Below, one piece after another: positions 39,028 to 55,848 of a DNA stretch of 64,000 nucleotides. The translations under genes were made by a program, and so were the position numbers. The stretch covers positions 3,162,001 through 3,226,000 of the forward strand of contig NZ_CP087134.1 in the NCBI RefSeq assembly GCF_020911925.1, given 5' to 3'. Under the pieces are notes generated by a model. That model saw nothing but the letters and a program-made list of their open reading frames with translations, searched no databases and was not told the origin of the DNA. Every line of letters starts with the position of its first letter. Positions within the stretch are counted from its first letter, which is position 1. This DNA comes from Flavobacterium cupriresistens (GTDB lineage: Bacteria > Bacteroidota > Bacteroidia > Flavobacteriales > Flavobacteriaceae).

Positions 39028-39135
39028 TATTTGGCTTTTACTGAATGAGGTATTTTTTGAGATTACTAATTTAGTTATTTCTTAAAATAAAAAATTCACA
39101 AAGTTTCTTAAATTATCCTGTTTTAGTTTTATTGG
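38872..39135. repeat. Source copy of 264-bp duplication
   Basis: Covers the antiporter's first 52 codons and 108 bp of its upstream region. It is nearly identical (about seven mismatches by eye) and in the same orientation as 41914-42177, an offset of 3042 bp. Confidence 0.93.
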
Positions 39136-40984: not shown

Positions 40985-41033
40985 TTCAACATAGTGTTTT
41001 TCACAAAGTTATGAATAACCTTTTGGTAATTAA

Positions 41034-41128
41034 TAACTTTGTGAGTAAAGATGCTGGTTTTTACCATTATGCGCGAATTACGCAGTACAAAAGGGTCTTT
41101 AAATTTAGCCCAAATTGAACGGCTGTTA
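41034..41128. repeat. attC-like repeat, first copy
   Basis: Subtype 1 centre (GATGCTGGTTTTTACCATTA, CGCAGTACAAAA) with right arm CCCAAATTGAACGGCTGTTAT, just after the stop of the PH-like membrane protein. It marks the left edge of the array, next to the AraC gene. Confidence 0.65.
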
Positions 41129-41147
41129 TAGCCACTTTTTATATTAG

Positions 41148-41684
41148 TTAATTAAGGTTTGTTTTACTTTGCATTAGTTTTTTTAGTTTTATAGCCTCTG
41201 TAAGGTCTATTCCGCCAGTAGCTGTTATAGTTTCGTATCCATAAAAGAAAGTTATTTTTATTTTGTCGGTAATTCTTAGAAGTTGGAGCATTGCTATTGG
41301 TCCTTCAGATACTGCTTCATCTTTAATATCAATTGTTTTAACTTCTGAAAGTTTATATGTTTTTGTTTTTGTCCAAAGAGGGGATAGTTTACTTAATTTT
41401 AATTCTCCATTACTAATACTTATTTCTCTTATTCCTTTTAGTTGCCATAGTAGCCCTCTTAGTGTAAAATAAACGACGGTTATGGATAATACCAAAATCA
41501 TAATTCGACTTATCAAAGGTAAGTTGTTGGTAAAAAATAAGGATTGAATAATTCCATTTGTAAATTGAAGTGTTATTAATGATAAGAAAATTATCAAGAC
41601 CCAACTTCTCTTTTTTGGAGTAGATATAATTATTTCTGAATTCGTCTCTATAATTTCAGAGATCATTTTTTTTGGTTCTTCCAT
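41148..41684 (-). CDS. Membrane protein with PH-like C-terminal domain, unknown function
   Basis: 178 residues. Two membrane helices (about 28-47 and 57-77) precede a soluble part (IREISISNGELKLSKLSP, TYKLSEVKTIDIKD) with the strand pattern of bacterial PH-like domains. First gene of the array; not recognised further. Confidence 0.65.
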   Translation of the reverse strand: MEEPKKMISEIIETNSEIIISTPKKRSWVLIIFLSLITLQFTNGIIQSLFFTNNLPLISRIMILVLSITVVYFTLRGLLWQLKGIREISISNGELKLSKLSPLWTKTKTYKLSEVKTIDIKDEAVSEGPIAMLQLLRITDKIKITFFYGYETITATGGIDLTEAIKLKKLMQSKTNLN

Positions 41685-41712
41685 ATTGTCTTGATGTCTT
41701 ATAAAATTGGTT

Positions 41713-41786
41713 ATAACGTTATGACGCTATACTTGGTTGGGAATTAATGATTGCGGTTTTGTCCATTATGTACAAATTCTCCGTTG
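41713..41786. repeat. attC-like repeat, left half only
   Basis: TAACGTTATGACGCTATACTTGG and the subtype 1 centre GTCCATTATGTACAAATTCTCC are present, then the sequence switches to GTTCGAAGTCTCCCGACTTCG and other repeat words. The right half is missing, replaced by the antiporter duplication. Confidence 0.65.
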
Positions 41787-41913
41787 TTCGAAGTCTCCCG
41801 ACTTCGTACCTGCTCCAATGAGCTAAAAAAGTTGTAGCCGAATATAGTAGTGTTTGCGAAGCCAAAAGACTTCGCACAGCGATCGCAATATTGAAAGAAC
41901 ACTTCGAAGAGCT

Positions 41914-42177
41914 GGGATTAATCTCAATTTCGCCCATACTTGGAAAAAAGCCGATTATGATTCCAACAATAACCAATAAAATAGGGTAGGGTAACTTAAT
42001 TTTATCTGCAAAAGCAGAAAGTCCAATTACGATGGCCAGGATAAAAATGATGATGCTGTAATTTTCCATTAGTTGGCTTTTACTAAATGAGGTATTTTTT
42101 GAGATTACTAATTTAGTTATTTCTTAAAATAAAAAATTCACAAACTTTCTTAGATTATCCTGTTTCTATTTTATTGG
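41914..42177 (-). pseudogene. Duplicated 5' fragment of the antiporter gene
   Basis: A copy of 38872-39135 carrying the first 52 codons of the Na+/H+ antiporter and its upstream sequence. After the conserved EIEINP the frame runs into unrelated repeat sequence (SSSKCSFNIAIAVRSLLASQ) and stops at 41719, so any product would be a junk-tailed fragment of 116 residues. It sits inside the array. Confidence 0.92.
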
Positions 42178-42214
42178 TAGTTGATTTTTGATGTTGTGTG
42201 TTAGATGATGGTTT

Positions 42215-42535
42215 TTATTTTTCTGAAAGTACACTCCGATTTAATACATCTTCCAGATTTCCAATTTCTAGTAAATCTGCAATAGTTTTTTCAATACACT
42301 CCCTTGTAAGTTCCTTTACAAATAAATCTGGCGTACATTGATATAAACCATTTAAATTGTCGCCGCTTTTTTCATTCAGCTTTTTTACAGTTTCTAAAAA
42401 CTTATACGTCCAAATGTTTATTCCGTAATGTTTTCCATTTGGCAAATCAACATGAATGTTACAAGATTCATTTTCCATATCAGAATTGCTAAAATCGACA
42501 TGTTCAAATTCAAGCCAAAGTTTAAAGTTGGTCAT
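42215..42535 (-). CDS. Small cytosolic protein of unknown function
   Basis: 106 residues, acidic, no signal peptide. It begins MTNFKLWLEFEHVDFSN and has a middle IHVDLPNGKHYGINIWTYKF. The size and acidity recall immunity-type proteins but nothing ties it to a toxin. Single gene of one cassette unit. Confidence 0.65.
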   Translation of the reverse strand: MTNFKLWLEFEHVDFSNSDMENESCNIHVDLPNGKHYGINIWTYKFLETVKKLNEKSGDNLNGLYQCTPDLFVKELTRECIEKTIADLLEIGNLEDVLNRSVLSEK

Positions 42536-42647
42536 TGGAGATTTATATGTTTTATGTTCAGTTAGTTCGGTTATTTAAAATTATCTATAAACGCTTGTTA
42601 GTGGATGTAATTTTGATTGTATTATATTTTGACTCTGTGTTAAATTT

Positions 42648-42768
42648 GTTAATAGCGATCTAGTGCTTGAAAGGGTTAGGGATTTCGAAGCTGAGTATTT
42701 TTGACTAAACGTATATAGCAATAAAAATTATAATTGCACTAAAGTCCCAATCTCTTCAAGCTGTTAGG
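42648..42768. repeat. attC-like repeat, subtype 2
   Basis: Left arm GTGCTTGAAAGGGTTAGGGA pairs with right arm TCCCAATCTCTTCAAGC, ending CTGTTAGG just before the next gene's stop. The centre has GATTTCGAAGCTGAG and CGTATATAGCAATAAAAATT. Confidence 0.72.
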
Positions 42769-42774
42769 ATCAAT

Positions 42775-43137
42775 TTAGCCTTGCCAGACATTAATTTCTG
42801 CAACTTTTTCGTTTTCAAATGTTATGGTTAAACTTCCGGTGTTTATTCCGGTTTTACTATATCCAAGATAATATCTAAATTCTTTTTCTGTTGAAAAATT
42901 GCTAGCAGGTTTTCCGAGCAAATTAACAATCTCGTTTTTGGACATTCCGATTAGTTTATAATTATTTCGCAAACTGTTCATCATATCCCAACGCATAGTC
43001 ATGTTCTCTTCAAGGTTTAAATTTGCATTTTTCCATTTGCGAGAATCAAATTTTTCACCAGAAATTTTTCCACGTAATCCTAAAGCGCAAACAAATACGA
43101 TAATAAGGACATTTAAGAATATATTCAGTTTTTTCAT
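42775..43137 (-). CDS. SmpA/BamE-like small membrane-anchored protein
   Basis: 120 residues from ATG 43137; the open frame continues to a TTG at 43194, but that part runs into the repeat. One N-terminal helix (NIFLNVLIIVFVCALGL), then GMSKNEIVNLLGKPASNFST, the motif of SmpA/OmlA-type domains (MTxxEVxxLLGxP), and GSLTITFENEKVAEINVW. Role unknown. Confidence 0.68.
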   Translation of the reverse strand: MKKLNIFLNVLIIVFVCALGLRGKISGEKFDSRKWKNANLNLEENMTMRWDMMNSLRNNYKLIGMSKNEIVNLLGKPASNFSTEKEFRYYLGYSKTGINTGSLTITFENEKVAEINVWQG

Positions 43138-43195
43138 TTTGTTATTTGTTGCAAATGCTTCTATTTTATTCTGCTCTTCAAAAAGATCGTCCAAT

Positions 43196-43274
43196 GTTTT
43201 GCTTTTGAAGTGATTGGGATTTAAAGGCGCGTTTTTTTCATTAAACTTAAAGACCTAATCACTGCAAGCCGTTA
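43196..43274. repeat. Short attC-like repeat
   Basis: GTGATTGGG (43210-43218) pairs with CCTAATCAC (43254-43262), flanked by TTTTGCTTTTGAA and TGCAAGCCGTTAAC. At about 80 bp it is the shortest complete copy; the centre is TTTAAAGGCGCGTTTTTTTC. Confidence 0.62.
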
Positions 43275-43285
43275 ACCATTGGATT

Positions 43286-43720
43286 TTATTTGTTTTTAAG
43301 ATTATTATACCAATACATTATTTTTTCACTTTCTTTTTTGTCAACTTTAGGATTAGAATTCAGACCGAGTTCTATTTTTGAATTTGTAATGTAAGAGTTT
43401 AAAAAAATAATTGCAAATCCACCAACTTCGGCATTATCTCCTGAAATAAATGAAGAAAAAGGATTCATATAACCACAGCACTTTTGATTAGAATTAAGTA
43501 TACTAATCAAATATTCTACATCCTCTTTTTTGACCCAATTTTTAGGAAAGTCTCCCGAAAGAGTTACACAATTAAGCCCTCGCTTTTGGTCATACTTCTC
43601 TATAAATAGTTGTATGAATTTTCTTGCGTTTAAGTCTTTAATGTTTAAAGTTTTATTTGTGTCAATTTGAGTTTTAGGTTTAAAAATTTCATTTTTAGTA
43701 AGGAAGTATGGAATAGACAA
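43286..43720 (-). CDS. Exported protein of unknown function with doubtful start
   Basis: At least 144 residues. The only possible start in frame is TTG at 43720, but the frame upstream of it reads KKKIFYLLLFCFILSIPYFL, a natural signal or membrane segment, before a TAA in a ten-A run near 43760. So the true start has been lost, probably by a change in that A-run (an ATA lies where ATG would be expected after removing one A). Body: NCVTLSGDFPKNWVKKEDVE, IELGLNSNPKVDKKESEKI. It may be a recent pseudogene. Confidence 0.55.
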   Translation of the reverse strand: MSIPYFLTKNEIFKPKTQIDTNKTLNIKDLNARKFIQLFIEKYDQKRGLNCVTLSGDFPKNWVKKEDVEYLISILNSNQKCCGYMNPFSSFISGDNAEVGGFAIIFLNSYITNSKIELGLNSNPKVDKKESEKIMYWYNNLKNK

Positions 43721-43805
43721 AATGAAACAAAAAAGTAGTAAGTAAAAAATCTTTTTTTTTTATAATTTTCTTTGTTTATTGTTTGTTCGGTTAAATTAAC
43801 GATTT

Positions 43806-44405
43806 TTAGTATTGCTCTATCGTTTTTGAGAATGTTATCTTTCCTTTTTTGGTTATAGTTCCGTCTTTAAAGTGAGTATAGTTTCTTTTGGTATTTAAAA
43901 TAGGCCCGAGACTGTCGCATTGATGACTTGTAATGGAATCAACAGAATGTATTTTTAGATTACGGTCAATTTTGATATATGCTGCGCAGGTAAATCCACA
44001 GTCAGCCCCGCATCCGCCAACACCTAATTCTTCAGTACTTATTTTTTTACCCTCTTTTGTATAAGTTGCAATTACGGGTATATGAGTTTCAGCGGGAAGC
44101 AGATAAATGACTTTATAAGCTTCTAAAGTGTCTGGCAATATACCATAAGGATAGACATTGTCGAGATCAGGATCGATATTATTTAAATCTAAAAACTTTA
44201 AATCGTTTTTTGTAAAAGCCTTTAAATTCTCAATCTGTATGTCTGAAGTTTTAATGTTTAAGGGGAATTTCAGGGTTTTAAATTTCTTTAGAAACACTTC
44301 GAAATCTTTCGATTGTATGGAAAGTTCTTTTTTGGTGTTTGTTTCTTTGTTTTTACAGCTTAATAAAGTTACTGTTAGTAAAAAGAAAATAATTTTGAAT
44401 TTCAT
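43806..44405 (-). CDS. Lipoprotein of unknown function
   Basis: 199 residues, lipobox LLSC (Cys17). The centre has GVGGCGADCGFTCAAYIKID, a cysteine-rich loop that may be disulfide-bonded after export. No known family recognised. Confidence 0.7.
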   Translation of the reverse strand: MKFKIIFFLLTVTLLSCKNKETNTKKELSIQSKDFEVFLKKFKTLKFPLNIKTSDIQIENLKAFTKNDLKFLDLNNIDPDLDNVYPYGILPDTLEAYKVIYLLPAETHIPVIATYTKEGKKISTEELGVGGCGADCGFTCAAYIKIDRNLKIHSVDSITSHQCDSLGPILNTKRNYTHFKDGTITKKGKITFSKTIEQY

Positions 44406-44445
44406 ATTTTTATGTTTTCGGTTTGGAGATAATAGTCACTAATAT

Positions 44446-44567
44446 TACAGTGCTTGATATGTTTGGGGATTGAGGAGGTAGGTTTTTTCCATTTTGCAAA
44501 AAATTAGAAGTACATAGTGATCTTCAAAATTATTGTAATATTACAATCTCGCCAAACGTCAGTTACG
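44446..44567. repeat. attC-like repeat, subtype 1
   Basis: Left ACAGTGCTTGATATGTTTGG, centre GTTTTTTCCATTTTGCAAAA and AGAAGTACATAGTG, right ACAATCTCGCCAAACGTCAG ending GTTACG, directly before the next stop. Confidence 0.62.
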
Positions 44568-45057
44568 TGCTGGTTTTATTAATAGCTTCTATAATATTTT
44601 TAAGAGGATTTATATTTAAGTTTAACCATTCTTTTTTGTTAAAACCATTTTCAATCATCCAGTTTTTCATTAACTTTAATTCGCTTATTTTATTTGAATT
44701 ACTAGTATTTATAAAAAAACTGTTAAAGGCAATTTCATATTTTTGATCAAAATTATCTAAAAAAATAAACATATCTAGTAAAAAGTTTCCGGCATTTGGA
44801 ATTAATCTTTCATGTAAACATGGAACAAACATTCCGTCAAAACCGAAAGTAATAGATACTAATATAATATCAATATAATCATTATCCCATTTAACAATTT
44901 CGGTTTTTAAATTACTCCAATCTTCATCAAGAAATGTATTTAATTTTTTTTGGATTTCATTGCTACCACCACCCATAGACCAAAAATCACTATCTTCAGA
45001 ATTATGATCTAGAATGTAATTGTAGATTGATTTTATTTTATGATTTTCGTTTGTCAT
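44563..45057 (-). CDS. Cytosolic protein of unknown function
   Basis: 164 residues without signal peptide, acidic, with GGGSNEIQKKLNTFLDEDWS and IDIILVSITFGFDGMFVPCL. It resembles immunity-type proteins in size and composition only. Its stop overlaps the end of the repeat. Confidence 0.65.
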   Translation of the reverse strand: MTNENHKIKSIYNYILDHNSEDSDFWSMGGGSNEIQKKLNTFLDEDWSNLKTEIVKWDNDYIDIILVSITFGFDGMFVPCLHERLIPNAGNFLLDMFIFLDNFDQKYEIAFNSFFINTSNSNKISELKLMKNWMIENGFNKKEWLNLNINPLKNIIEAINKTST

Positions 45058-45101
45058 TATTACTCAATTAACCTTTTATTCTCTAGTTTTTTAAGTACAC
45101 A

Positions 45102-45209
45102 GTTAGCATTCCGACGTTTGGGAAGGTTATTCATTAAATACAAATTTTAATACAAAAAACCAACTGCAAATTCGACCAAAAGTCCCATATTACGACAAAT
45201 GCCTGTTAG
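45102..45209. repeat. attC-like repeat
   Basis: Left GTTAGCATTCCGACGTTTGGGA, centre AATACAAAAAACCAACTGCAAATT, right GTCCCATATTACGACAAATG ending CTGTTAG. TTTGGGA pairs with TCCCATA-type sequence. Confidence 0.62.
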
Positions 45210-45218
45210 TAAATGATT

Positions 45219-45662
45219 CTATTTTAACTCTAATTCAATTTTTTCTTTAGATACTTTTTTCAGTAAACTTTTTTCAGCTAAACTCCAAATAATTAAAATG
45301 TTATCTTTTACAAAAAAATCTTCCGGATGCTCCTTTGTAGATTTTTTTCCGCCCCAAAGTAGACCTTCGAGGAAACCTTGCATTTCAAAATTATTTTCAA
45401 ATTCAAAATACATAATGCTTCCACTGTCAGTTTTGTTTTCAAAATTTTGAACTTCTTTATGTTTTACTTTTCCAATCAAAGCAGAATATAGATCAGGATT
45501 ATTGTAGAATGTGCAAGCTTGTATTGAGATACATTTTGGTTTATTTGTCAAATGATAATCTACAGGAATTTCATTTTCATTAAGTTTTAACTTTTCAAAA
45601 TTCTGCGCAAATACATTTGTACTTAAAAATAAGCAAGAAAGAAATAAAATTGTTTTTTTCAT
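45219..45662 (-). CDS. Secreted protein of unknown function
   Basis: 147 residues from ATG 45662, which places a signal peptide (MKKTILFLSCLFLSTNVFAQ) at the N-terminus; the upstream ATG-less extension to 45698 is ignored. The body IMYFEFENNFEMQGFLEGLL and DNILIIWSLAEKSLLKKV is not recognised. Confidence 0.68.
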   Translation of the reverse strand: MKKTILFLSCLFLSTNVFAQNFEKLKLNENEIPVDYHLTNKPKCISIQACTFYNNPDLYSALIGKVKHKEVQNFENKTDSGSIMYFEFENNFEMQGFLEGLLWGGKKSTKEHPEDFFVKDNILIIWSLAEKSLLKKVSKEKIELELK

Positions 45663-45765
45663 TAAATAGGTTTTATATATAGTTTTTTCGTAATTCAACC
45701 ATACTTAAATTCGTTAGGAACTCATTCTGGTTGTAGAATTCTATTCGGTTACAGTAAACTTGTTG

Positions 45766-46320
45766 TTATCTGATGTTTTTTCTTTTCAATTGTGAATAGG
45801 ATTCCACAGTAATTATTGAGAGATTAAAAAGTAATAAGTAGTATCCACTCTTTATTTGTTCAACATCTTCAAAAATTTTCCCGAAATATAACATTATCAG
45901 TGGGATTATAAGTAAGAATATATTTAGAATGCCTAAAATAAAAGTTGTTTTTGGCTTGTCTTTAAACGAATAAAATATTATAAGTAGATCTATTAAAATA
46001 GAAACCGAAAACGGCATTAATGGCCATTGAGGAGTTTCAATATCATCAATGAATAGTTTCCCGATTTGATAACCGTTTAGTGTTAATTTTTTTTTGAGTT
46101 TTACAAAATCAGTAATTGCATTTTGCTTTTTTACGGTCAGTTCTGCGAAAGTTAAATTGTACTCTTTTTCATTAAGTTCCGTTTTAGAGACGCTTTTTAC
46201 CTCTTCCCATAATGGACTATTTTTTAAGTTTCTATTTTCAGAAATATTTTTGTCTGAACAAGTTTGAAAAAAGGGGAGGAATAGAATCAATAAACTAATT
46301 ATGGAGAGTTTCTTTAACAT
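45766..46320 (-). CDS. Lipoprotein with two C-terminal membrane helices
   Basis: 184 residues. Lipobox-like FQTC near residue 21, a charged middle (LKKKLTLNGYQIGKLFIDD), then hydrophobic segments FSVSILIDLLIIFYSF, FILGILNIFLLIIPLIML and YYLLLFNLSIITV. Not recognised. Confidence 0.65.
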   Translation of the reverse strand: MLKKLSIISLLILFLPFFQTCSDKNISENRNLKNSPLWEEVKSVSKTELNEKEYNLTFAELTVKKQNAITDFVKLKKKLTLNGYQIGKLFIDDIETPQWPLMPFSVSILIDLLIIFYSFKDKPKTTFILGILNIFLLIIPLIMLYFGKIFEDVEQIKSGYYLLLFNLSIITVESYSQLKRKNIR

Positions 46321-46345
46321 ATTTTGTTGTTTTATGGTTGTTCAT

Positions 46346-46400
46346 TGGTTATTTTCGGTGCTCTGTGTGAAAATGCCAGGAACGGTTAGCGGTAGTATTT
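46346..46400. repeat. Short, degenerate attC-like end
   Basis: GTTATTTTCGGTGCTCTGTG, then GCCAGGAACGGTTAGCGG, in a 65-bp gap; only the arms remain and the centre is missing. Confidence 0.4.
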
Positions 46401-46763
46401 TTTATAATCCTTTTTGGCTTCAATTATTGTGATTCCAAGTAAAATAAATCCGCCAATGAGAGCAATATACGCACCTAGTCTTTGTTTTTCAATATATTCT
46501 GCTGCGCTATATACAACTTCATTTTTTTTCTCAATTTGAAAGATATCCAAATTTAAGTTTGTTGAATTATTATCATTAAAATAAACTAGTACTTCATCGT
46601 TTAAATTCAACTTTTTAGCAAGCAAATCATAATTCTGTTCTTTATTATAAACTCCAAAAACTTTTTCATTTCCCTCAATTTTGAAAGTAAATACTTTTGA
46701 GGCAATTTTATACTTTCCGGCTACTGATGAATTGGAAACTAAAACGGCTGTCGACTGTAATTT
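46386..46763 (-). pseudogene. 5'-truncated small membrane protein gene
   Basis: The frame following the TAA of the TPR-like gene reads straight on as LQSTAVLVSNSSVAGKYKIA, SKVFTFKIEGNEKVFGVYNK and ends with a membrane helix (LGAYIALIGGFILLGITII). There is no ATG; the first usable codon is a TTG at 46625. No repeat lies between it and the preceding gene, so its 5' end and a cassette boundary seem to have been deleted together. Confidence 0.65.
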
Positions 46764-47864
46764 TTATTTCCACATTGATTTATACTGTTCCATTTTATTC
46801 ATTTCTTCACTCATAAATGAATTGTCTTTATTTTGTATTCTTAATTGATTTATAGCGTCAATGTTTGCCAATACACCAGATTCATACCAAGGAAATTCAT
46901 TTGCTAAGGAGCCAAGTTTAGCTAATGCTCTTAGACTTTCTCCATTTTGTGACAGAAAAACCGAATGTTCGTATCTAAATGTTGGACACCAATAATATTC
47001 TTCGGCTAATTTTTCCCAAGTTTCTTCATCACAATTTCCTGCTTTAAGAAAATTAATTGCAAAAATAGATGAATCGATATAATTAACAGAAAAAGCAAAA
47101 TAATTTAATAATGGAATTTCTTTCTCGTTAGCATCGTTTTTGATTCTATTTTCGATTACTTCGTTAATTAATTTATGGGATAGTTCTTTATCTTCATATG
47201 AATTGGATAAATGTAATAAATTAGCGTATTCGGTTTTGACAATATCTAAATCCGGTCTCAATTCGTAAGCGCCTTTTGAATAATGTAAAGCTTGAGGAAT
47301 GGAGTTTAAAACACGATAAAGTTTTGATAGTGCAACAATCAATCTTATATCTTGAAAATCATCTTGTTTTATATTGGTTTCTTGAAAATTTAAAGCTTTT
47401 AGAGCGTATCTGTCTTTTACAAATCGTTCAATTATTTGCCATTTTTGTAATTTGTTAAGTTCAGTTTCATCCCATTGTTCAAATAAAATTGCTCTTCGGT
47501 CCCAAATTGATCTGACTTTTTTCCATTCATTAAAAGTGAAATTAAAAGCTTCGTGTTCTTCAAACAAATTCCCTTGTTCGTCTTCTAAACTAAGCTCAAT
47601 TCTAAATTCAGGAGATGAATAGTATCGATTTATTGAATCATACAATTCCGTTTTAAAAAGATCAGGTGTATTTGTACTAATTTCATTAGAACTGGATAAT
47701 TTATTCATCATTTCTAAAAATAAATCTTGGTCATTTTGTGGCGAAGATTTAAGTTCATCCATTGCTTTTTTTTCATGCTCCTCAGCATTCTTTTCAATTA
47801 TTGATGAATTTCTTTCTTGTTCTTTGTTTTCGGTTTTTCCGAATAATCGTTTAAATAGGCTCAT
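46764..47864 (-). CDS. TPR-like protein of unknown function
   Basis: 366 residues, the longest of the array. After a charged N-terminus (MSLFKRLFGKTENKEQERNS) the protein is helical, with TPR-like pairs around residues 175-230 (SKLYRVLNSIPQALHYSKGA, YELRPDLDIVKTEYANLLHL). No catalytic motif is seen. Stop TAA is shared in frame with the truncated gene that follows. Confidence 0.7.
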   Translation of the reverse strand: MSLFKRLFGKTENKEQERNSSIIEKNAEEHEKKAMDELKSSPQNDQDLFLEMMNKLSSSNEISTNTPDLFKTELYDSINRYYSSPEFRIELSLEDEQGNLFEEHEAFNFTFNEWKKVRSIWDRRAILFEQWDETELNKLQKWQIIERFVKDRYALKALNFQETNIKQDDFQDIRLIVALSKLYRVLNSIPQALHYSKGAYELRPDLDIVKTEYANLLHLSNSYEDKELSHKLINEVIENRIKNDANEKEIPLLNYFAFSVNYIDSSIFAINFLKAGNCDEETWEKLAEEYYWCPTFRYEHSVFLSQNGESLRALAKLGSLANEFPWYESGVLANIDAINQLRIQNKDNSFMSEEMNKMEQYKSMWK

Positions 47865-47899
47865 AGTTGTTGTTTTTCTAAAATTACAGCTTACGGCTG

Positions 47900-48037
47900 T
47901 TAGCGTTTATTGTTTGTTTTTATAGCGTATTGGTCAAATTTATACTTAATTTTTTTTGTTATAAAGTTTGAAATAAATAACGAGCCTGCCCCTAAAAAAA
48001 CAAAAGATGTTCCCATTTTTAATGGGGAAATATCCAT
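47900..48037 (-). CDS. Small membrane protein, 45 residues
   Basis: ATG at 48037 to TAA at 47900: MDISPLKMGTSFVFLGAGSL then FISNFITKKIKYKF and a basic tail KTNNKR. One membrane helix (about residues 7-25) followed by a lysine-rich tail is a plausible small protein, and it fills an otherwise empty 450-bp gap in the same orientation as its neighbours. Its stop lies in a repeat-end sequence TTACGGCTGTTAGCG, like the stops of other array genes. Confidence 0.5.
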   Translation of the reverse strand: MDISPLKMGTSFVFLGAGSLFISNFITKKIKYKFDQYAIKTNNKR

Positions 48038-48313
48038 TTTTCACTCCACCAAAAATTATATGTAAGTGAATAGATGTTTTTCATTTGTTTTTTTAAGCCG
48101 TTACGATGTTTAATTCTATTTAATATTAAATTTCATGTGTAATTGGGATTTCTAAAATATAAAAAAGGATATTATCATTTTTTACATATTTTTTGTAAAC
48201 TTCAGGTTTCCACTTCAGGATTTAATGTGTAAACAGAGATGTGTAAAAAGATGCTTTTATTTTTGCTGTTAATAGTAGTCAAATTATTCAGATCAATATG
48301 TATGGTTAATAAT

Positions 48314-48820
48314 TTATTTCTCAATTTTTTCAAAGTAAATACTTTCCCCACTATCCGGGTCACCAATTATAAATTCAATTCTATAATTCCCTAAACCTCT
48401 ATCAATATGAGCAGAAGTAAAAAGATTTGGGCATTCTAAAGACAATTCATTATATTTAAATTCGTAGTCAACTTCATATTTTCCATTTTGACATATGTCA
48501 ATAGATGGAGTTGTGGTCAATTTAAAAGTGCCGTTTTCATACAATTGAAGTTTATATTTATCGTAAGTATTTTTGTCAATATTAAGACGAGTGACCTTTA
48601 CGATATGATATTTTCCAACTAAATCTTTAGTTTTTGATCTACTTGTGAATAGCCCACTAAACAAACCAAACAGTAGAAAAGCTATAACAATGATTGAAGA
48701 AGTTTTTATAAGTATTAATCCTTTTCTTCGTGTATTCTTTTTCAGCAGAAAAAAAAGCCCAGGAAAAAAGCCCAAACCTATGATGAAAAGAATTAAAGAC
48801 AGAAGTATGTTAAATGTCAT
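48314..48820 (-). CDS. Membrane-anchored protein of unknown function
   Basis: 168 residues. Two N-terminal helices (LLSLILFIIGLGFFPGLFFL, IIVIAFLLFGLFSGLF) and a soluble beta-rich domain (GKYHIVKVTRLNIDKNTYDK, LQLYENGTFKLTTTPS) like lipocalin-type copper-resistance or DUF4488 proteins. Not assigned. Confidence 0.65.
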   Translation of the reverse strand: MTFNILLSLILFIIGLGFFPGLFFLLKKNTRRKGLILIKTSSIIVIAFLLFGLFSGLFTSRSKTKDLVGKYHIVKVTRLNIDKNTYDKYKLQLYENGTFKLTTTPSIDICQNGKYEVDYEFKYNELSLECPNLFTSAHIDRGLGNYRIEFIIGDPDSGESIYFEKIEK

Positions 48821-48884
48821 TTTTGGATTTGTATTTCAGTTGAAGTTTCTTCTGAGAATTGGGTTTCAGTTTGCATTTTTGGAG

Positions 48885-49005
48885 TTTGAAGAGGTTAGGT
48901 ATTAAAAAGTTGATTTTTTTCCATTTGACGCACATTTTCCTAGTACAAAACCATTTTTAAATTCTGGGCAATGTTCAAATCTCGTATAAGAGCTCTTAGC
49001 GGCTG
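48885..49005. repeat. attC-like repeat, degenerate left end
   Basis: Centre TTTTTTTCCATTTGACGCACA, TTTTCCTAGTACAAAACC (subtype 1); right CAAATCTCGTATAAGAGCTC then TTAGCGGCTG, 5 bp before the next stop. The left arm is weak. Confidence 0.6.
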
Positions 49006-49006
49006 C

Positions 49007-49468
49007 TTATTTTAATGCAGCTATTTTTCCGTCAGTAATAGTTACCATTATATTGGTTTTATTTTCGGAACTATCATCATGAAATTTTACTTGAAATTTA
49101 TTTTTTTGTCCCACTACATTTTCTATAGATAATGATTCTATCATTTTTTCAGAGACATCCTGAGCATTTATAAATGGGTCATAATCCAATTCATTATTTT
49201 CAAATTCATTCGAAATACTGTCTAATAAAGTCTTTTTACAATATTTGTTTTTTAAAGAATCTAATTTTCTCTCGGATTCTTTGAGATTTGAATTAGTAAA
49301 TTCATGTAAATAAGCTACATAAAATGCATTTAATATTTCTTTCGAATTAGATTCATCTGCAATTTTTGTGTCCGTACTTGATAATTCGGTTTTGTTTTTT
49401 TCGTCGTTTTTTTTACAACTTATTATAAGTAGTACTATTACTATGAAAAATAGATGTCTTCTTTTCAT
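49007..49468 (-). CDS. Lipoprotein, DUF3828-like
   Basis: 153 residues, lipobox IISC (Cys18). The helix SKEILNAFYVAYLHEFTNSN and LDYDPFINAQDVSEKMIESL, then QVKFHDDSSENKTNIMVTIT, follow the DUF3828 pattern. Only 24 bp and no repeat separate it from the next gene, so both may form one unit. Confidence 0.68.
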   Translation of the reverse strand: MKRRHLFFIVIVLLIISCKKNDEKNKTELSSTDTKIADESNSKEILNAFYVAYLHEFTNSNLKESERKLDSLKNKYCKKTLLDSISNEFENNELDYDPFINAQDVSEKMIESLSIENVVGQKNKFQVKFHDDSSENKTNIMVTITDGKIAALK

Positions 49469-49492
49469 TTTGACTTTCTGTTTTTGTTATTA

Positions 49493-49969
49493 TTACAACC
49501 GAGTAATAGGAATAAAATTAATAGAATATTTTTCTCCTTTACGAACTAATTTATCTGTTTGTGTATTATATGATTGTAGTTTACCTTTTGAGATTTTGTA
49601 TTTCAAATGATATTCTATCTCATTTTCCTTTTTTAACTCATAAGAATGAGTTTTTCCAAAATTTCCAAAATTTACAATGGTATCTTTTCCGTTAATTTTG
49701 ACAATTTCACTTTCAGTTTCGTCTTTCAGTTTGTTAAATCGTAAATATAATTTCTTTTTTTTGATTATGTATTTTCCATCAAGTTCTTGGTGTGATAAAT
49801 CGCCTGAAAATTCATAGTGAAAAGTACTATCAGATTTCAACTCAATTTTTGTTATAAAGAAACCTAAATCCGCAAAGTTTGATCGATACTTTCCATCAAT
49901 TTTTTCGCTAACATTACACGACATTAAAAAAATAGAAAAGCAAATAAGTAAAATAATTTTCGGTTTCAT
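49493..49969 (-). CDS. Lipoprotein of unknown function
   Basis: 158 residues, lipobox LMSC (Cys18). Lipocalin-like strands: IDGKYRSNFADLGFFITKIE, LKSDSTFHYEFSGDLSHQEL, DGKYIIKKKKLYLRFNKLKD. Such small lipocalin-fold lipoproteins are common in flavobacteria. Confidence 0.68.
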   Translation of the reverse strand: MKPKIILLICFSIFLMSCNVSEKIDGKYRSNFADLGFFITKIELKSDSTFHYEFSGDLSHQELDGKYIIKKKKLYLRFNKLKDETESEIVKINGKDTIVNFGNFGKTHSYELKKENEIEYHLKYKISKGKLQSYNTQTDKLVRKGEKYSINFIPITRL

Positions 49970-49995
49970 TTTCGTTTTTTTTGAGATATAGCTAT

Positions 49996-50124
49996 TAACG
50001 GTTTGACATTTGTGGCAGCTAGGGAATATAAGGTGCGCTTTTATTGTATTATGTATAAGTTTTACAAGTACAAAACCAGCTGCAAATTAAATTAAATACC
50101 CGAATCTCATGTAAAAGTTGTTAA
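49996..50124. repeat. attC-like repeat, subtype 1
   Basis: Left TTAACGGTTTGACATTTGTG, centre TTTTACAAGTACAAAACCAG then CTGCAAATTAAATT, right CCCGAATCTCATGTAAAAGTTG ending GTTAAC. It lies just after the next gene's stop. Confidence 0.68.
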
Positions 50125-50612
50125 CTGCTGGCTTGTTTCAATAAACTTCTGGACTTTTCAATAATCTCTAACTCATATTTTAGATTGTATTCTTTACTTG
50201 AAAACGTTGGAGAAATCAAAATGTCATTTTCATAGTAAAATCTTTTTTTGATAAACTTTTTTTTCTTTCTACGACTAATTATTGATTCTATGTAAATAAG
50301 TTTCGAATTGGAATAGTAAAAACTCATGTCTTCGTCTGTTTCTTGATTCCTTCGTGTATAACAAATCCTGATAACTAGACCATTAGTTTTTAATAACCGC
50401 GTATTGTTATACATTCTTCTTGTAGGTTTTCCATCAATTCGACCATGTGTAAATACAAATTCTTCATTAGACACTTCTTCTGTAAGGAAACTAGAAATAC
50501 TGTCCGTATATTTTACATGTGATTCTATAGTTTTTATTTTGCTCGCATCTGTTTCGCCTGTTTGTCCAAACATTAGGATTGGAGATAATAATAGTAGAAT
50601 TTTAAATTTCAT
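50121..50612 (-). CDS. Secreted protein of unknown function
   Basis: 163 residues, signal peptide MKFKILLLLSPILMFGQ. Mature part: FVFTHGRIDGKPTRRMYNNT, lysine-rich ISRRKKKKFIKKRFYYENDI. No family recognised. Confidence 0.67.
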   Translation of the reverse strand: MKFKILLLLSPILMFGQTGETDASKIKTIESHVKYTDSISSFLTEEVSNEEFVFTHGRIDGKPTRRMYNNTRLLKTNGLVIRICYTRRNQETDEDMSFYYSNSKLIYIESIISRRKKKKFIKKRFYYENDILISPTFSSKEYNLKYELEIIEKSRSLLKQASS

Positions 50613-50645
50613 GTTTTATGTTTGAAATGTACTGAAGCTTACAAC

Positions 50646-50772
50646 TAACGTTCTGGCGCTATACGAGGTTTGGGATTAACGATGTGAGTTTTTTCCATTA
50701 AGCAAAAATTTTCCAAGTACAAAACCAGCTATAAATTAAGCCAAGTACCCAAATCTCTTTTAACGACTGTTG
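50646..50772. repeat. attC-like repeat, subtype 1, best-preserved copy
   Basis: Left TAACGTTCTGGCGCTATACG then AGGTTTGGGA; centre GTTTTTTCCATTAAGCAAAA and CCAAGTACAAAACCAGCTAT; right ACCCAAATCTCTTTTAACGA then CTGTTGG. GAGGTTTGGG pairs with CCCAAATCTC; AAC and GTT sit at the ends. The next gene's stop is 13 bp away and the previous gene's start is 33 bp away. Confidence 0.78.
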
Positions 50773-50784
50773 GTAGTTGTATTT

Positions 50785-51378
50785 TTAAACCCAATTAATA
50801 TCAGTTGAACTAACTAATTGGCGACTACCGTTTTCATAAACAAAGTTAAAGGTAAATGTTTGCGGTAAATTATCATTAGGTTTTCCCATTAGAATTAACT
50901 TTAAAAAATATGGATTACCGCCTATAAAAAATGAACTTTGATTTAAAGCAATTACTAATGAATCTATTGTTTTTTGTTGCCCATCCCATTGAACATCATG
51001 CCATTTAAATAAATCTTTAATGTCTGTACCTGCTGGTTTACCATTAAAATTATTATTACTGAATATTTCAATTGTTTTCAATTTATCTTTCAGTCCGTCA
51101 ATACCTGGGGTGCCTTTTGAAAAAGCATAAGCTGAAGTTGTAAAGTTGAACCACTGTCTTGATTTTTCAATATTTGCAACGTAGGTATAAGACATGTTAA
51201 TTTTAAAGTATACTTTATTTTCTGAAATTATATCTATAGGCTTAACAACATTTGTTAATGCTTCGTCCTTAAAAGCCTGACAAGTCAAATTGTCAATTTT
51301 ATAATATGGGTCTACACTTTCACATGAGATTGGTATAATTCCTAAGAAAAACACTAATATTAATATATTACGTTTCAT
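50785..51378 (-). CDS. Lipoprotein of unknown function
   Basis: 197 residues, lipobox PISC (Cys19), then a beta-rich body (INMSYTYVANIEKSRQWFNF, LKTIEIFSNNNFNGKPAGTD). It has the look of DUF5034-type flavobacterial lipoproteins, but I cannot assign it. Bounded by good repeat copies on both sides, so a clean single-gene unit. Confidence 0.68.
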   Translation of the reverse strand: MKRNILILVFFLGIIPISCESVDPYYKIDNLTCQAFKDEALTNVVKPIDIISENKVYFKINMSYTYVANIEKSRQWFNFTTSAYAFSKGTPGIDGLKDKLKTIEIFSNNNFNGKPAGTDIKDLFKWHDVQWDGQQKTIDSLVIALNQSSFFIGGNPYFLKLILMGKPNDNLPQTFTFNFVYENGSRQLVSSTDINWV

Positions 51379-51462
51379 AAATTACTCATTGTTTAAAAAT
51401 TTAATTTTCTGATTCTATGCTATGGATTACAATTATGTCTAATTTTTCGGTAATAGTACTAC

Positions 51463-51561
51463 CAACGTCTTGGCACTATACGAGTATGGGGATTTAGAAG
51501 GCCGAATATAGGAATAAAACGATAATTCAAGAAAGGCTCAATCACGACAAACGACTGTTGT
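51463..51561. repeat. attC-like repeat, subtype 2
   Basis: Left CCAACGTCTTGGCACTATACG; centre GGATTTAGAAGGCCGAATAT and AGGAATAAAACGATAATTC; right AATCACGACAAACGACTGTTG. The left arm is shared with subtype 1 copies while the centre is not. Confidence 0.7.
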
Positions 51562-51584
51562 GCGATCGGTTATTTTATTTACTA

Positions 51585-52148
51585 TTACTCTCCAATATAT
51601 TTTGTTCGTATAAATTTTGAACAATCATTTTCAAACTCATTGCATGAATCAAATAAGATTGTAGCTCCATTTTTATTTTTGTTACTTTTCAAGATTTGAT
51701 AAATTTCAACTCCTCCAATTGGGTCGACTCCAACTAAATCAATAATAATATTCTTTGTAAAAGTTAACGTTTTGTATAAGCTTAGTATTCTTCTAGGACT
51801 TCCTGCTAATGTGTTCACTTTTATTTTTGGTTTCATCCAATTAAGTTCATATATTTTATTTCTGTAAAATATATTTGAGCCAGAATTCTTAAGATACTTT
51901 TCAACTGTTAGAGGAAAGATAAAACTTAAAAGTGAATCTGTTTGTATGTGTTCAACATATTTGAAACTTGAGTTTTGATTTGTAAAAATACTATTTAATT
52001 TAAGAGTTAAGTCCCTAAATTTAGCACCTCCAAGAATTTCAATTATAATAATTTCTCCTTCATTTATAGTAAAAGCAGGGATTATAAAATCGTCAATAAT
52101 TTGTTCAGGGAAATTTAATAACATTGTAAATTTGTTATTTGTAAACAT
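51585..52148 (-). CDS. Degenerate ABC-ATPase-like protein
   Basis: 187 residues. The order of parts follows an ABC ATPase: a P-loop region FTINEGEIIIIEILGGAKFR without GK[ST], a signature-like LAGSPRRILSLYKTL, a Walker B-like IIIDLVGVDPIGGVEIYQIL with the catalytic Glu missing, and an H-loop strand GATILFDSC without His. So it is either a pseudo-ATPase that kept the fold or a chance resemblance. A second ATG (M9) is an alternative start. It lies between two good repeat copies. Confidence 0.6.
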   Translation of the reverse strand: MFTNNKFTMLLNFPEQIIDDFIIPAFTINEGEIIIIEILGGAKFRDLTLKLNSIFTNQNSSFKYVEHIQTDSLLSFIFPLTVEKYLKNSGSNIFYRNKIYELNWMKPKIKVNTLAGSPRRILSLYKTLTFTKNIIIDLVGVDPIGGVEIYQILKSNKNKNGATILFDSCNEFENDCSKFIRTKYIGE

Positions 52149-52193
52149 TCATAAATTTGGTCTTTTTTTTTACTTCTGCGGTTAACTGTGGCG

Positions 52194-52324
52194 CAACGTT
52201 CTGGCACTACAAGAGGTTGGGGAATAAAGATGCGGGATTTTCTCCATTATGCACAAGTTTTCCAAGTACAAAACTAGCTGTAAATTCATACTAATGTCCA
52301 AATCTCGTGTAACGGTTATTAGTT
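52194..52324. repeat. attC-like repeat, subtype 1
   Basis: Left CAACGTTCTGGCACTACAAG then AGGTTGGGGA; centre TTTTCTCCATTATGCACAAG and CCAAGTACAAAACTAGCTG; right GTCCAAATCTCGTGTAACGG ending ATTAGTTAG. Arm pairing AAC-N7-C-N2-TAC-N2-GAG is seen on both sides. Confidence 0.75.
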
Positions 52325-52342
52325 AGCCGGGCTTTGTTCTTA

Positions 52343-52936
52343 TTATTTTGTAGTTGTTATTATTATAGCTCCGTAAACTTCATCTTTTCCATATATAACA
52401 TTACTACTGTTTTTATTTAAAATGGTAACATCTGATATAATTTCTTTTTTTATAGGTAGAACTATTGTGTTAAGAGTTTTATTATATTTAAAAGGCTCTC
52501 CATCTATGACTATTAATGGAGGATTAGCAATTTCATCTTTTTGGAAAGCGGTTTTGATTTTGTCAACCAAATAATATTGTGATTCATCTTCATTTTCCAG
52601 TAAAAATATTTTCGTTTTTGAGGTTGTAATTATTAAAACTCCTGCTTCGCCGAAATTACCATAAATACTAATGCCTTTCTGTTTATCAATTGCTACAATC
52701 TTTTCAATAGCAACTTTTGACAATGGTAATTTTTCTTTTTCTAAATCTTGGTAACGAAATGGTATTCCATTAACAACAACAATAGGGCGATTTGTTATTA
52801 ATCCACTTTCAGCCATTTTTGAAATTGAATCTGAAAGAAATAATTTCTCTTTTCCGTTTTCAAGAAGCTCATATCTGTTTTGTGAATACATTGAAAATGA
52901 TATGATAGAGATAATTCCGAGAAAAATTTTTTTCAT
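52343..52936 (-). CDS. Secreted protein with two TonB-plug-like repeats
   Basis: 197 residues from ATG 52936 (ATG 52957 is an alternative), signal peptide to MYSQ. Two tandem copies of one motif are visible: RPIVVVNGIPFRYQDLE then GISIYGNFGEAGVLIITT, and PPLIVIDGEPFKYNK then NVIYGKDEVYGAIIITT. The VxDG...IYGxxGxxGxIIITT pattern is that of the plug domain of TonB-dependent (SusC/RagA) receptors, here without a barrel. Confidence 0.75.
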   Translation of the reverse strand: MKKIFLGIISIISFSMYSQNRYELLENGKEKLFLSDSISKMAESGLITNRPIVVVNGIPFRYQDLEKEKLPLSKVAIEKIVAIDKQKGISIYGNFGEAGVLIITTSKTKIFLLENEDESQYYLVDKIKTAFQKDEIANPPLIVIDGEPFKYNKTLNTIVLPIKKEIISDVTILNKNSSNVIYGKDEVYGAIIITTTK

Positions 52937-52957
52937 ACTGATTTTTTTAGATTTCAT

Positions 52958-53075
52958 AACGCCTTGTTACTAAAATTTCGGCGCTTGTCATGGTTAGGGG
53001 TTTAGAAGCCGAGTATTTTCGGCTCGACGAATATAGGAATAAAAACGATAATTCAACTAAAGCGCTACTGGAAGT
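52958..53075. repeat. attC-like repeat, subtype 2, last copy
   Basis: Left TAACGCCTTGTTACTAAAAT, CGGCGCTTGTCATGGTTAGGG; centre TTTAGAAGCCGAGTATTTTC and GAATATAGGAATAAAAACG. The right arm is replaced by GGAAGTCGGGAGGCTTCGCA and other sequence to 53243, so the copy is incomplete. Confidence 0.6.
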
Positions 53076-53243
53076 CGGGAGGCTTCGCATAGCGAGGGAT
53101 ATAGATTTCGGTTGTTTTACTATTGTTGTGTACTAAGAACGATTGGGTATATCTTAAACCTGTTCAGCCTTAAAGCAAATGAATGACATAATGATAACGT
53201 AGCCAATGCAGAGGTGCAGGTTTTTAAACCTTAATTATTCTGC

Positions 53244-53630
53244 TTAAATTTTCACCATTACAGTCCCACTAAGAATATCATGAAGGGCTCGTTTCTTTGA
53301 GTTTGAAAAAATAGTGATAAAAGAAAGCCAGCCGAATAGTAATTTGATGAAATATCGAATCAGCGCCTGGAAAATATTGATTCGTTTTGTGCTGTCGGAA
53401 TTTTTTCTGACTCTTATGCTTTTTATGTTATTACCTATTGTGCCACCAAAAGTAGTGGCTATTGGTTCGTATAAAAATAGAGCTATCAGCAAAACAGCCC
53501 TTAGCCAATCGGGTACATTTTTGAAATTAGATAGAATATCAGAGAAAATGATCATGCAAGCTACTATTAAAACCGAGTCAATTAGAATAGATTGTATTCT
53601 CTCGAGTAAAAAAGGGTATTTTTCGTTCAT
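53244..53630 (-). CDS. RDD-family membrane protein
   Basis: 128 residues from ATG 53630. The RDD pattern is ERIQSILIDSVLIVACMIIF then GGTIGNNIKSIRVRKNSD and RALHDILSGTVMV, with three membrane helices. RDD proteins are small transporters or regulators of unclear role. It is the right-most minus-strand gene of the array block. Confidence 0.85.
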   Translation of the reverse strand: MNEKYPFLLERIQSILIDSVLIVACMIIFSDILSNFKNVPDWLRAVLLIALFLYEPIATTFGGTIGNNIKSIRVRKNSDSTKRINIFQALIRYFIKLLFGWLSFITIFSNSKKRALHDILSGTVMVKI

Positions 53631-53700
53631 CGTTTTTTTTTTGACGAATGTACTTATTTTAATGGTATTCACAGAACTTTTTTTAACACAACCAAGTGCC

Positions 53701-53795
53701 CTAGCCCTGATGGGAGCGGCATCCTTTTTCTTGCTTCTTTAGCAAGGAAAAGATAGAGCAGACAGCAGGAATCAGCTCCTGATAATGACACTTAA
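53701..53795 (+). ncRNA. Flavo-1-like structured RNA candidate
   Basis: Starts CTAGCCCTGATGGGAGCGGC and ends GCAGACAGCAGGAATCAGCTCC. A central hairpin TTTTCTTGCT / AGCAAGGAAAA has a TCTT loop; CTGAT and ATCAG-like ends can pair. As far as I recall this sequence type is the Flavo-1 RNA motif, widespread in flavobacteria between genes; function unknown. The call is from memory of the motif, not a search. Confidence 0.55.
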
Positions 53796-53964: not shown

Positions 53965-55848
53965 ATGGGTAAAATAATCGGAATTGACTTAGGTACGACG
54001 AACTCTTGTGTTTCTGTAATGGAAGGTAATGAAGCAGTTGTTATTCCTAACGCAGAAGGAAAAAGAACTACACCATCTATCATCGCTTTTGTTGAAGGTG
54101 GAGAAATTAAAGTGGGTGATCCTGCAAAAAGACAAGCGGTAACTAATCCAACTAAGACTATTGCTTCTATCAAACGTTTTATGGGACAAGGTTTTGGTGA
54201 GGTTTCGGCTGAAGCAAAAAGAGTTTCTTATTCAATCGTAAAAGGAGATAACAATACACCACGTGTTGACATTGATGGTCGTTTGTACTCTGCACAAGAA
54301 TTGTCAGCTATGACACTTCAAAAAATGAAAAAAACTGCTGAAGACTATTTAGGTCAAACAGTTACTGAAGCGGTTATTACTGTTCCTGCTTACTTTAATG
54401 ATGCACAACGTCAAGCTACAAAAGAAGCTGGAGAGATTGCTGGTCTTAAAGTTATGCGTATCATCAATGAGCCAACTGCAGCTGCATTAGCTTACGGATT
54501 AGATAAAAAAGGAACAGATCAAAAAATTGCTGTTTATGATTTAGGTGGAGGTACTTTTGATATCTCTGTTCTTGAATTAGGAGACGGTGTATTCGAAGTA
54601 TTGTCTACAAATGGTGATACTCACCTTGGAGGAGATGATTTTGACCACGAAATTATTGACTGGTTAGCTGACGAATTTAAAGCTGAAGAAGGTATTGATT
54701 TACGTTTAGATCCAATGTCTTTGCAACGTTTGAAAGAAGCTGCTGAGAAAGCTAAAATTGAATTGTCATCTTCTGCTGAAACTGAAATCAACTTACCTTA
54801 CGTAACTGCTACAGCTTCAGGACCAAAACACTTAGTTAAAAAATTAACTAGAGCTCAATTCGAAAAATTAACTGATTCTTTAGTAAAACGTTCTATGGAA
54901 CCAGTTGCTAAAGCATTAAAAGATGCAGGTTTATCTGTTTCTGATATTGACGAAGTTATCTTGGTAGGTGGTTCTACTCGTATGCCAAGAATTGCTGACG
55001 AAGTTGAAAAATTCTTCGGTAAAAAAGCGTCTAAAGGAGTTAACCCTGATGAGGTTGTTGCAATTGGAGCAGCTATTCAAGGTGGAGTTCTTTCTGGAGA
55101 TGTAAAAGATGTATTGTTATTAGACGTTACTCCTTTATCTTTAGGTATCGAAACTATGGGTGGAATTATGACTATCTTAATTGAGTCTAACACAACTATC
55201 CCAACTAAAAAATCTCAAGTTTTCTCTACTGCTGCAGATTCTCAACCAACTGTTGAATTGCACGTATTACAAGGAGCTAGAGCAATGGCTGCTGATAACA
55301 AAACTATCGGTCGTTTTAACTTAGACGGTATTCCACCAGCACCAAGAGGAGTTCCTCAAATCGAGGTTTCTTTTGATATTGATGCGAATGGTATCATCAA
55401 AGTTTCTGCAACTGACAAAGGAACTGGAAAATCTCACGATATCCGTATCGAAGCTTCTTCTGGTTTAACAGCTGAAGAAATCGAGAAAATGAAAAAAGAC
55501 GCTGAAGCTAACGCTGAGTCTGATAAAGTAGCTAGAGAAAGAGCTGAAAAATTGAACGAAGCTGATGGAATGATCTTCCAAACTGAGTCTCAATTGAAAG
55601 AACTTGGATCTAAATTAGCTGATGATCACAAAGTTGCTGTAGAGTACGCTTTAACTGAATTGAGAATGGCTCACCAATCTCAAGACATTCCAGCTATTCA
55701 AACTGCTCTTGACAACATCAATGCAGCTTGGAAAACAGCTACAGAAGCGATGTACGCTCAAGGTGAACAAGGTCAACAAGCGGCTCCTCAACAAGAGCAG
55801 TCTCAAGGTGACAATGTTGAAGACGTTGAATTCGAAGAAGTAAAATAA
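53965..55848 (+). CDS. dnaK: Molecular chaperone DnaK
   Basis: 627 residues, full length. Phosphate-binding [51 protein letters not shown], the [18 protein letters not shown] linker, and a C-terminal substrate domain ending in a Gln-rich tail ([14 protein letters not shown]) and [15 protein letters not shown] end. ATP-driven Hsp70. No dnaJ or grpE is adjacent. Codon use looks strongly biased (GTT, GAA, AAA), as expected for a highly expressed gene. Confidence 0.98.

Follow-up and report, generated by a model that had tools for sequence, protein, structure and literature searches.

Xer proteins resolve dimers at dif. IntI integrons and chromosomal superintegrons comprise an integrase, an attI site and a one-way array of small orphan genes that can reach dozens of cassettes, and extracts of PMC8618304 describe clusters of attC sites lacking an integrase (CALIN). 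Here we analyse a stretch of 64,000 nucleotides of the Flavobacterium cupriresistens genome (contig NZ_CP087134.1; G000:C1:3162001-3226000, in a genome of 5.74 Mb in one contig), hereafter the window, in which attC-like repeats separate small genes next to dnaK. A preliminary description made from the letters of the window had proposed an integron-like reading. This reading is supported, those of its refuting conditions that could be examined leave it standing, and the repeats in the window are confirmed as genuine. Comparison with related genomes makes it very likely, as a joint proposition, that the window holds a decayed gene-cassette array adjoining dnaK and that relatives with an intact system use a tyrosine recombinase lacking the I2 insertion to recombine attI with attC-like sites.

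Besides this overall plan, the flavobacterial arrays have in common with IntI integrons sites ending in AAC and GTT, covarying arms, cassette boundaries at GTT and a bottom strand that is mostly the more stable. They differ in that the flavobacterial integrase lacks I2 and, in Flavobacterium members, carries about 70 extra N-terminal residues. Three further features, as seen on the flavobacterial side, may also set them apart: the integrase gene is co-directional with the cassettes and has attI beyond its 3′ end; the inverted arms of attI covary; and the private R-box pairing extends over about 10 bp. As in CALIN, at least in the extracts of PMC8618304, the window contains two or more sites less than 4 kb apart (detected with our own covariance model rather than that of IntegronFinder) and integrase remnants only, with no working integrase found; its site type is nevertheless tied to another integrase family, of which a remnant is still there. 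XerA-like recombinases are set apart by gene position, since the integrase gene described here sits at a cassette array.

According to passages of PMC8138268, the catalytic-domain (CAT) insertion is essential for integron function and is not fully conserved in the integron-like subgroup of tyrosine recombinases. The I2-less relatives may already be counted in that subgroup; the same passages make no mention of arrays in Flavobacteria, and searches of a PubMed Central collection, which leaves out bioRxiv and most subscription papers, yielded no description of such arrays in this group among the matches listed. An ancestral model, as set out in part of PMC4792948, derives IntI from a Xer-like ancestor that gained I2 and sees in I2 the solution for reading the extrahelical bases of folded attC. 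In contrast to that model, attC-like sites here accompany an enzyme without I2.

Cassette arrays, attI and sites in related genomes

Intact genes of the integrase family (347 amino acids in several cases) lie directly upstream of arrays in same-genus genomes. In the relatives an intact recombinase gene comes first, then a candidate promoter, a single attI some 104 bp past the stop codon and, last, one-way cassettes. Paired-end cassettes number 63 in G099 (four chains, about 70 kb), 60 in G127 (six chains) and 38 in G218 (three chains), and 260 were counted over 14 stretches as against 31 in the same sequences reversed. The longest open reading frame (ORF) is forward in 417 and reverse in 19 of 463 cassettes. 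Pfam over 80 of 166 cassette proteins of G099 and G127 gave 14 families at E ≤1e-5, mostly domains of unknown function (DUFs), with one WapI-like immunity protein.

Each cassette starts with GTT-N7 and closes with N7-AAC-site, the two N7 being reverse-complementary and private to that cassette. In nine loci (eight from other genera plus L120, with site anchors set heuristically and outliers kept), the 3′ flank of one site matches the 5′ end of the next at a mean of 5.90 of 8 positions (104 pairs). The mean is 2.63 in 1663 other pairs and 2.95 when both ends belong to one site, and none of 5000 permutations reached 5.90. Six Flavobacterium loci gave 6.34 (44 pairs) against 2.68, again with 0 of 5000 permutations. 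Since R''/R' pairing of an excised circle predicts private paired ends, these values point to a crossover at GTT. The cassette boundary is located there at the resolution of the whole trinucleotide rather than of a single base, and the earlier expectation that junctions lie at the GTT end holds in the relatives.

In 10 of 13 loci the R-box of the first cassette is found again, at 6 or more of its 7 bases, between the integrase stop and the first site. Nine of these recurrences are at the attI distance; the L127 match, 1.1 kb away from the integrase, represents an internal site. Eighty loci were named in Flavobacterium, Pedobacter, Kaistella, Pelobium and others. Of 76 named loci, 73 have an attI-like motif, at a median of 104 bp (quartiles 101-105) past the stop. 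The constancy of this distance and the pairing of the arms serve as controls: the arms are paired at 0.572 against 0.362 after shuffling (maximum 0.395), and covary with 249 double changes against 108. Of 79 loci, 52 have TAnnTTTG, a candidate promoter element, within 50 nt past the integrase stop (1.8 expected), and the upstream TTG lies in conserved coding sequence. Chains of at least two cassettes with exact 10-nt ends were found downstream in 19 of 80 loci and upstream in 2, despite twice as much upstream sequence; opposite-strand chains were discarded as a control because paired ends are symmetric. In 41 of 80 loci the contig stops within 2.5 kb on the downstream side of the integrase, and in 4 on the upstream side, which would be expected if assemblies break at repeats.

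We built a covariance model, R1, from ten window sites. Its recovery of these ten is circular, and the independent test lies in other genomes. Run on same-genus genomes, as the preliminary description had proposed, R1 found copies at E ≤0.01 in 28 of 36, with 57 in G030 and 47 in G009; none of 23 genomes from other families of the order had any. Sites in two G030 contigs are one-directional, with gaps of 355-3472 bp. Across 199 genomes of the family, R1 matched only the source genome, G186 (same genus) and one place in G245, a near silence explained by other genera owning different site sequences. By blastn, 10 of 20 fetched stretches beside an integrase homologue or its continuation hold at least five repeat copies.

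Covariation was assessed on 40 Flavobacterium sites, 38 from relatives and two from the window. This set has AAC and GTT ends, and arms conserved in structure above sequence, as in attC. Both-side changes occur in 14 of 21 pairs and fill 135 cells, compared with 37.5 after shuffling and no more than 27 after sliding, and the paired arms reported earlier are thus borne out, mostly on relatives. The bottom strand is the more stable in 118 of 136 sites, including 96 of 101 in seven other-genus loci, and the top strand has 62 A.C mismatches against 17 G.T. The stability bias would agree with folded-strand recombination.

Related bodies form 30 pairs among the 463 cassettes. Five within-genome pairs are 100% identical, with an identical site in all five; two of them make up a single duplicated G218 block, so that four events are counted, not five. 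Exact identity ends downstream at GTT in every pair. On the upstream side the end of identity precedes GTT by 1 base in the G218 cases, by 8 in G227 and by 44 in G099, where the sites ahead of the cassettes are alike too. The cross-genome comparison covers 13 pairs, and the following holds among the matches listed. L241 (G009) and L179 (F. denitrificans) have in common 1327 bp at 93.7%, starting exactly at GTT; the cassette follows an attC in G009 and the attI in F. denitrificans, a between-species counterpart to the strain comparison proposed earlier. G099 and G180 have a common 637-bp cassette (92%) that stands inside the array in one genome and heads it in the other, and in L230 and L181 body and site are common up to GTT. 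The body common to L241 and L179 occupies L241:1359-2677 and L179:11146-12465.

The recombinase family and its remnants

A direct protein search identified an integrase remnant at 53098-53232 of the window, at the upstream end of the array, with 58% identity to residues 286-330 (E 6.7e-11), one TGA and two TAA; TIGR02249 also matches it (E 0.0019). The array had been described as lacking an integrase, which is right insofar as no working integrase was found and wrong insofar as this remnant exists. Another remnant, at C1:3872712-3872819 (81% identity), marks a second platform of the source genome, where attI can still be read and the 10-nt ends of the first cassette agree exactly. These are the only two family remnants found in the source genome, whose other recombinases are at most 31% identical. 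Because only remnants of the family were found, the window array should be immobile now.

In F. fryxellicola and F. xanthum an intact integrase adjoins dnaK in divergent orientation. dnaK (95% and 94% protein identity, respectively) precedes the integrase by 0.7 kb in L154 and by 1.0 kb in L153, and the window array is very probably the decayed counterpart at this locus. As dnaK was absent from every other locus examined from L069 onward, the integrase platform sits elsewhere in most loci.

The I2 insertion of 41-44 residues, which defines IntI, is absent from the recombinase of the relatives (the window remnant is too fragmentary to bear on this), and about 15 residues stand where VchIntIA (2a3v) has about 59. 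The DR-to-LRH distance is 60-61 in 22 of 23 family rows (23 in L209, where the pattern matched elsewhere), 102 in the single pattern-fitting IntI row of ten, and 66 and 68 in two Xer. IntI with its patch III insertion had been named earlier as the expected enzyme; the recombinase beside the arrays belongs instead to a family without the insertion. Four family proteins score 204-212 bits with TIGR02249, against a cut-off of 265, and 218.3, 222.2, 216.4 and 212.3 bits with NF040815 (XerA), straddling the curated cut-off of 220. The closest sequence and fold matches are XerA-like (NCBIfam NF040815; PDB 5hxy and 4a8e), the fold-match rows covering residues 68-339 with the N-terminal extension outside. 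The structure model has a mean pLDDT (predicted local distance difference test) of 81.4, a pTM (predicted template modelling score) of 0.49 and a poor C-terminal end. In a tree, IntI forms one clade (100/100; all but one of its ten IntI rows come from a single family), and the I2-less group is unplaced relative to IntI and Xer, with several long branches. Homologues at E ≤1e-60 occur in 104 of 199 Flavobacteriaceae genomes, sampled at about one per genus; the family is large and mostly filed under generic integrase or XerD names.

Two Chryseobacterium plasmids (L269 and L270) carry the integrase and an attI-like stretch on similar ParA-bearing backbones with different cargo, so that plasmid-borne versions exist. 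L269, from Chryseobacterium sp. SNU WT5, also has a gene-less cassette-like hairpin starting GTTGGGAAAA in at least three copies, one of them at attI; the copies follow position 13044 at offsets of about +104, +2199 and +4580. A 588-residue relative with a long N-terminal extension (L077:6691-8457, genome G016) lies near weak site matches.

Proposed mechanism and alternative explanations

Site and cassette anatomy, GTT boundaries, private ends, covarying arms, a fixed attI, and shared and duplicated cassettes are read directly in the sequences, and together they suggest recombination in the arrays. We propose that a tyrosine recombinase without I2 would join attC-like sites of about 125 bp to a fixed attI that lies some 104 bp past the end of the recombinase gene, with crossover at GTT. 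Cassettes, which as a rule consist of one small ORF and the site belonging to it, would enter behind the integrase in the same orientation and could be excised, copied or moved. The cutting would presumably be done by the recombinase beside the arrays on a folded bottom strand, and a putative promoter between integrase and attI would drive the first cassettes. More broadly, we tilt slightly towards the view that Bacteroidia own an integron lineage, ancestral to or independent of IntI, characterized by folded sites without I2, an attI with hairpin-like arms, arrays of about 60 cassettes, and swapping of the incoming cassette's site with its R-box kept. The demand of surveys for the I2 patch, together with the breaking of assemblies at the arrays, is the probable reason why such a lineage would have been missed so far.

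If this is true, widespread environmental bacteria own a gene-capture platform filed mostly as generic integrase or XerD, and a store of orphan mobile genes is opened. The need for I2 in the recombination of folded single-stranded sites would become directly testable, with a bearing on the origin of integrons from Xer-like enzymes, and the cross-species mosaics of bodies and sites would provide data on how sites turn uniform within one genome.

Several observations weigh against the proposed mechanism. In the window, seven folds (five sites, two of them on both strands) show no clear gain over shuffles (z -0.30 to +1.55), and site structure accordingly rests on covariation in relatives; end pairing there is weak, at 3.3 against 2.55 over 10 pairs. 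The bottom strand is the more stable in just 22 of 35 Flavobacterium sites (L084-L086), and a single invariant pair accounts for 40 of the 62 A.C cells; once it is set aside, 22 A.C cells remain against 17 G.T. Exact 10-nt end pairs that occur singly do not rise above chance (downstream in 45 of 80 loci, upstream in 52 of 80). Fewer than five repeats were detectable by blastn in the other 10 of the 20 fetched stretches. Five of these are 20-kb pieces of chromosome, of which L128, L132 and L133 show no repeat and L125 and L130 show two or three. Not every homologue, then, serves a visible array. Finally, several cross-species pairs have a common body and different sites (0.60 in L241/L179, 0.69 in G099/G180), a pattern unexpected under classical cassette transfer; sites may be replaced once a cassette has passed between species.

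This last pattern, bodies common to species with different sites, is what one would expect if mobility were confined to the gene body, flanked by 10-bp terminal inverted repeats of its own, and the 125-bp sites were fixed host separators. We consider such body-only movement highly unlikely: in all five identical pairs found within genomes the identity takes in the whole site and ends at the following GTT, L230 and L181 have body and site in common up to GTT, and the paired ends follow from R''/R' pairing in a circular cassette. It is less plausible still that homologous recombination, with no site-specific recombinase, has spread the repeats as intergenic elements of an ordinary kind, such as terminators, RNA elements or repetitive extragenic palindrome-like sequences. 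Window strands that fold no better than shuffles would fit such elements, as would repeat copies in the source genome that lie between ordinary genes (for example at C1:5.107-5.110 Mb) and lack paired ends. The preliminary description had held that repeats between unrelated housekeeping genes would speak against recombination sites; some such copies exist, and paired cassette ends (at least 6 of 7 bases) were found at 2 of 13 copies tested outside the window, namely 12 of the 14 extra-window copies and one weaker match. Intergenic elements account poorly, however, for private paired ends, boundaries exact to the base at GTT, an attI fixed behind one recombinase gene and the one-way orientation of 417 against 19 among 463 cassettes, and the repeats match zero Rfam families at gathering score.

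A canonical integron, with a true IntI elsewhere acting on these sites, would account for the attC-like geometry, and TIGR02249 does exceed its cut-off in 105 of 395 genomes of the phylum. It does so in neither the source genome nor 22 same-genus genomes, and G291 alone exceeds it among the same-class genomes sampled; the gene adjoining the arrays, moreover, is of another family. We regard a canonical IntI as barely conceivable here. The proposal of an I2-less recombinase acting on attC-like sites is retained.

Sites and genes of the window array

R1 finds ten good sites and one weak one in the window, separated by ten gaps of 419-3660 bp. At E ≤3.7e-4 the source genome holds 24 copies, ten in the window and 14 elsewhere. 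The five copies named earlier (those at 50645-50775, 52193-52324, 51462-51563, 42652-42772 and 49995-50126) were found again, as were the two centre types on common arms. The end motifs are partly decayed: 5′ AAC is kept at 9 of 11 sites, in line with the earlier account, and 3′ GTT at only 5 of 11. One perfect end pair is left, where the 3′ GTTGGTAGT (9 nt) of site 51462-51563 matches the 5′ end of the following site, 50645. No attI was recognised in the window.

The locus is anchored by dnaK (53965-55848, plus strand). On the minus strand, an RDD-family membrane protein gene (53244-53672; PF06271, 47.9 bits) lies between dnaK and the integrase remnant (53098-53232), a C-terminal part with three stop codons. 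In the array itself, 18 non-nested minus-strand ORFs of at least 60 residues span 41148-52957 in succession, close to the 17 or so mostly unrecognised genes described before; the Pfam cut-off is reached by one of the 18.

All array features that follow are on the minus strand, with R1 scores given for the sites. The first site, 52970-53073 (25.6 bits, E 0.063; family D3), is decayed and recognisable chiefly in its 3′ half. Next come a cassette ORF of 204 residues (52343-52957), site 52193-52324 (119.9 bits), an ORF of 187 residues (51585-52148), site 51462-51563 of the second centre type (63.2 bits), a lipoprotein-like ORF of 197 residues (50785-51378) and the top-scoring site of the window, 50645-50775 (130.7 bits). 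An ORF of 163 residues (50121-50612) precedes site 49995-50126 (97.1 bits). The lipoprotein-like ORF of 158 residues at 49493-49969 has no site before the next ORF, which encodes 153 residues with the Pfam match DUF3828 (49007-49468) and is followed by site 48871-49001 (107.3 bits). Five ORFs then occupy 45219-48820 (48314-48820, 46764-47864, 46386-46625, 45766-46320 and 45219-45698); R1 detects zero sites among them, and this is the widest gap, 3660 bp.

Beyond it lie site 45103-45211, with a shortened centre (70.5 bits), an ORF of 164 residues (44563-45057), site 44439-44568 (99.8 bits), two ORFs within 43286-44405 (43806-44405 and 43286-43720), and site 43191-43280, also with a shortened centre (55.6 bits). 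An ORF of 139 residues (42775-43194), with a weak, under-cut-off likeness to BamE, is followed by site 42652-42772 of the second centre type (80.9 bits) and an ORF of 106 residues (42215-42535). The partial site 41710-41841, missed by R1, belongs to family D1 (74% over 47 nt) and has an intact 3′ half and a replaced 5′ half. A membrane protein ORF of 178 residues (41148-41684) and the last attC-like site, 41015-41131 (82.6 bits), close the array.

Inverted stretches of GAAGTCGGGAG type, at 53071-53094 and 41782-41805, stand where two sites have lost their 5′ halves; another repeat family has perhaps inserted there. The second centre type in site 52970-53073 reads TTG-N18-TATATTCG, which we take to be close to the Bacteroidota promoter pattern, and sites may carry promoters.

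PADLOC on 10 window proteins gave one marginal helicase match (E 0.00093), judged to be chance, and a tRNA scan of the window gave none. At gathering scores over the whole window, Rfam has a sole match and no family for the repeats: a Flavo-1 RNA (RF01705, 72 bits) on the plus strand at 53699-53776, adjoining dnaK. The start of an antiporter gene (37762-39027) is duplicated within the array, with 133 identical bases between 41939-42071 and 38897-39029, and is fused into a chimeric ORF, 41719-42069. Elsewhere in the genome, two tyrosine recombinase gene pairs with identical scores, unrelated to the arrays, lie 6.7 kb apart (G000:C1:5349549-5351194 and 5356261-5357906).

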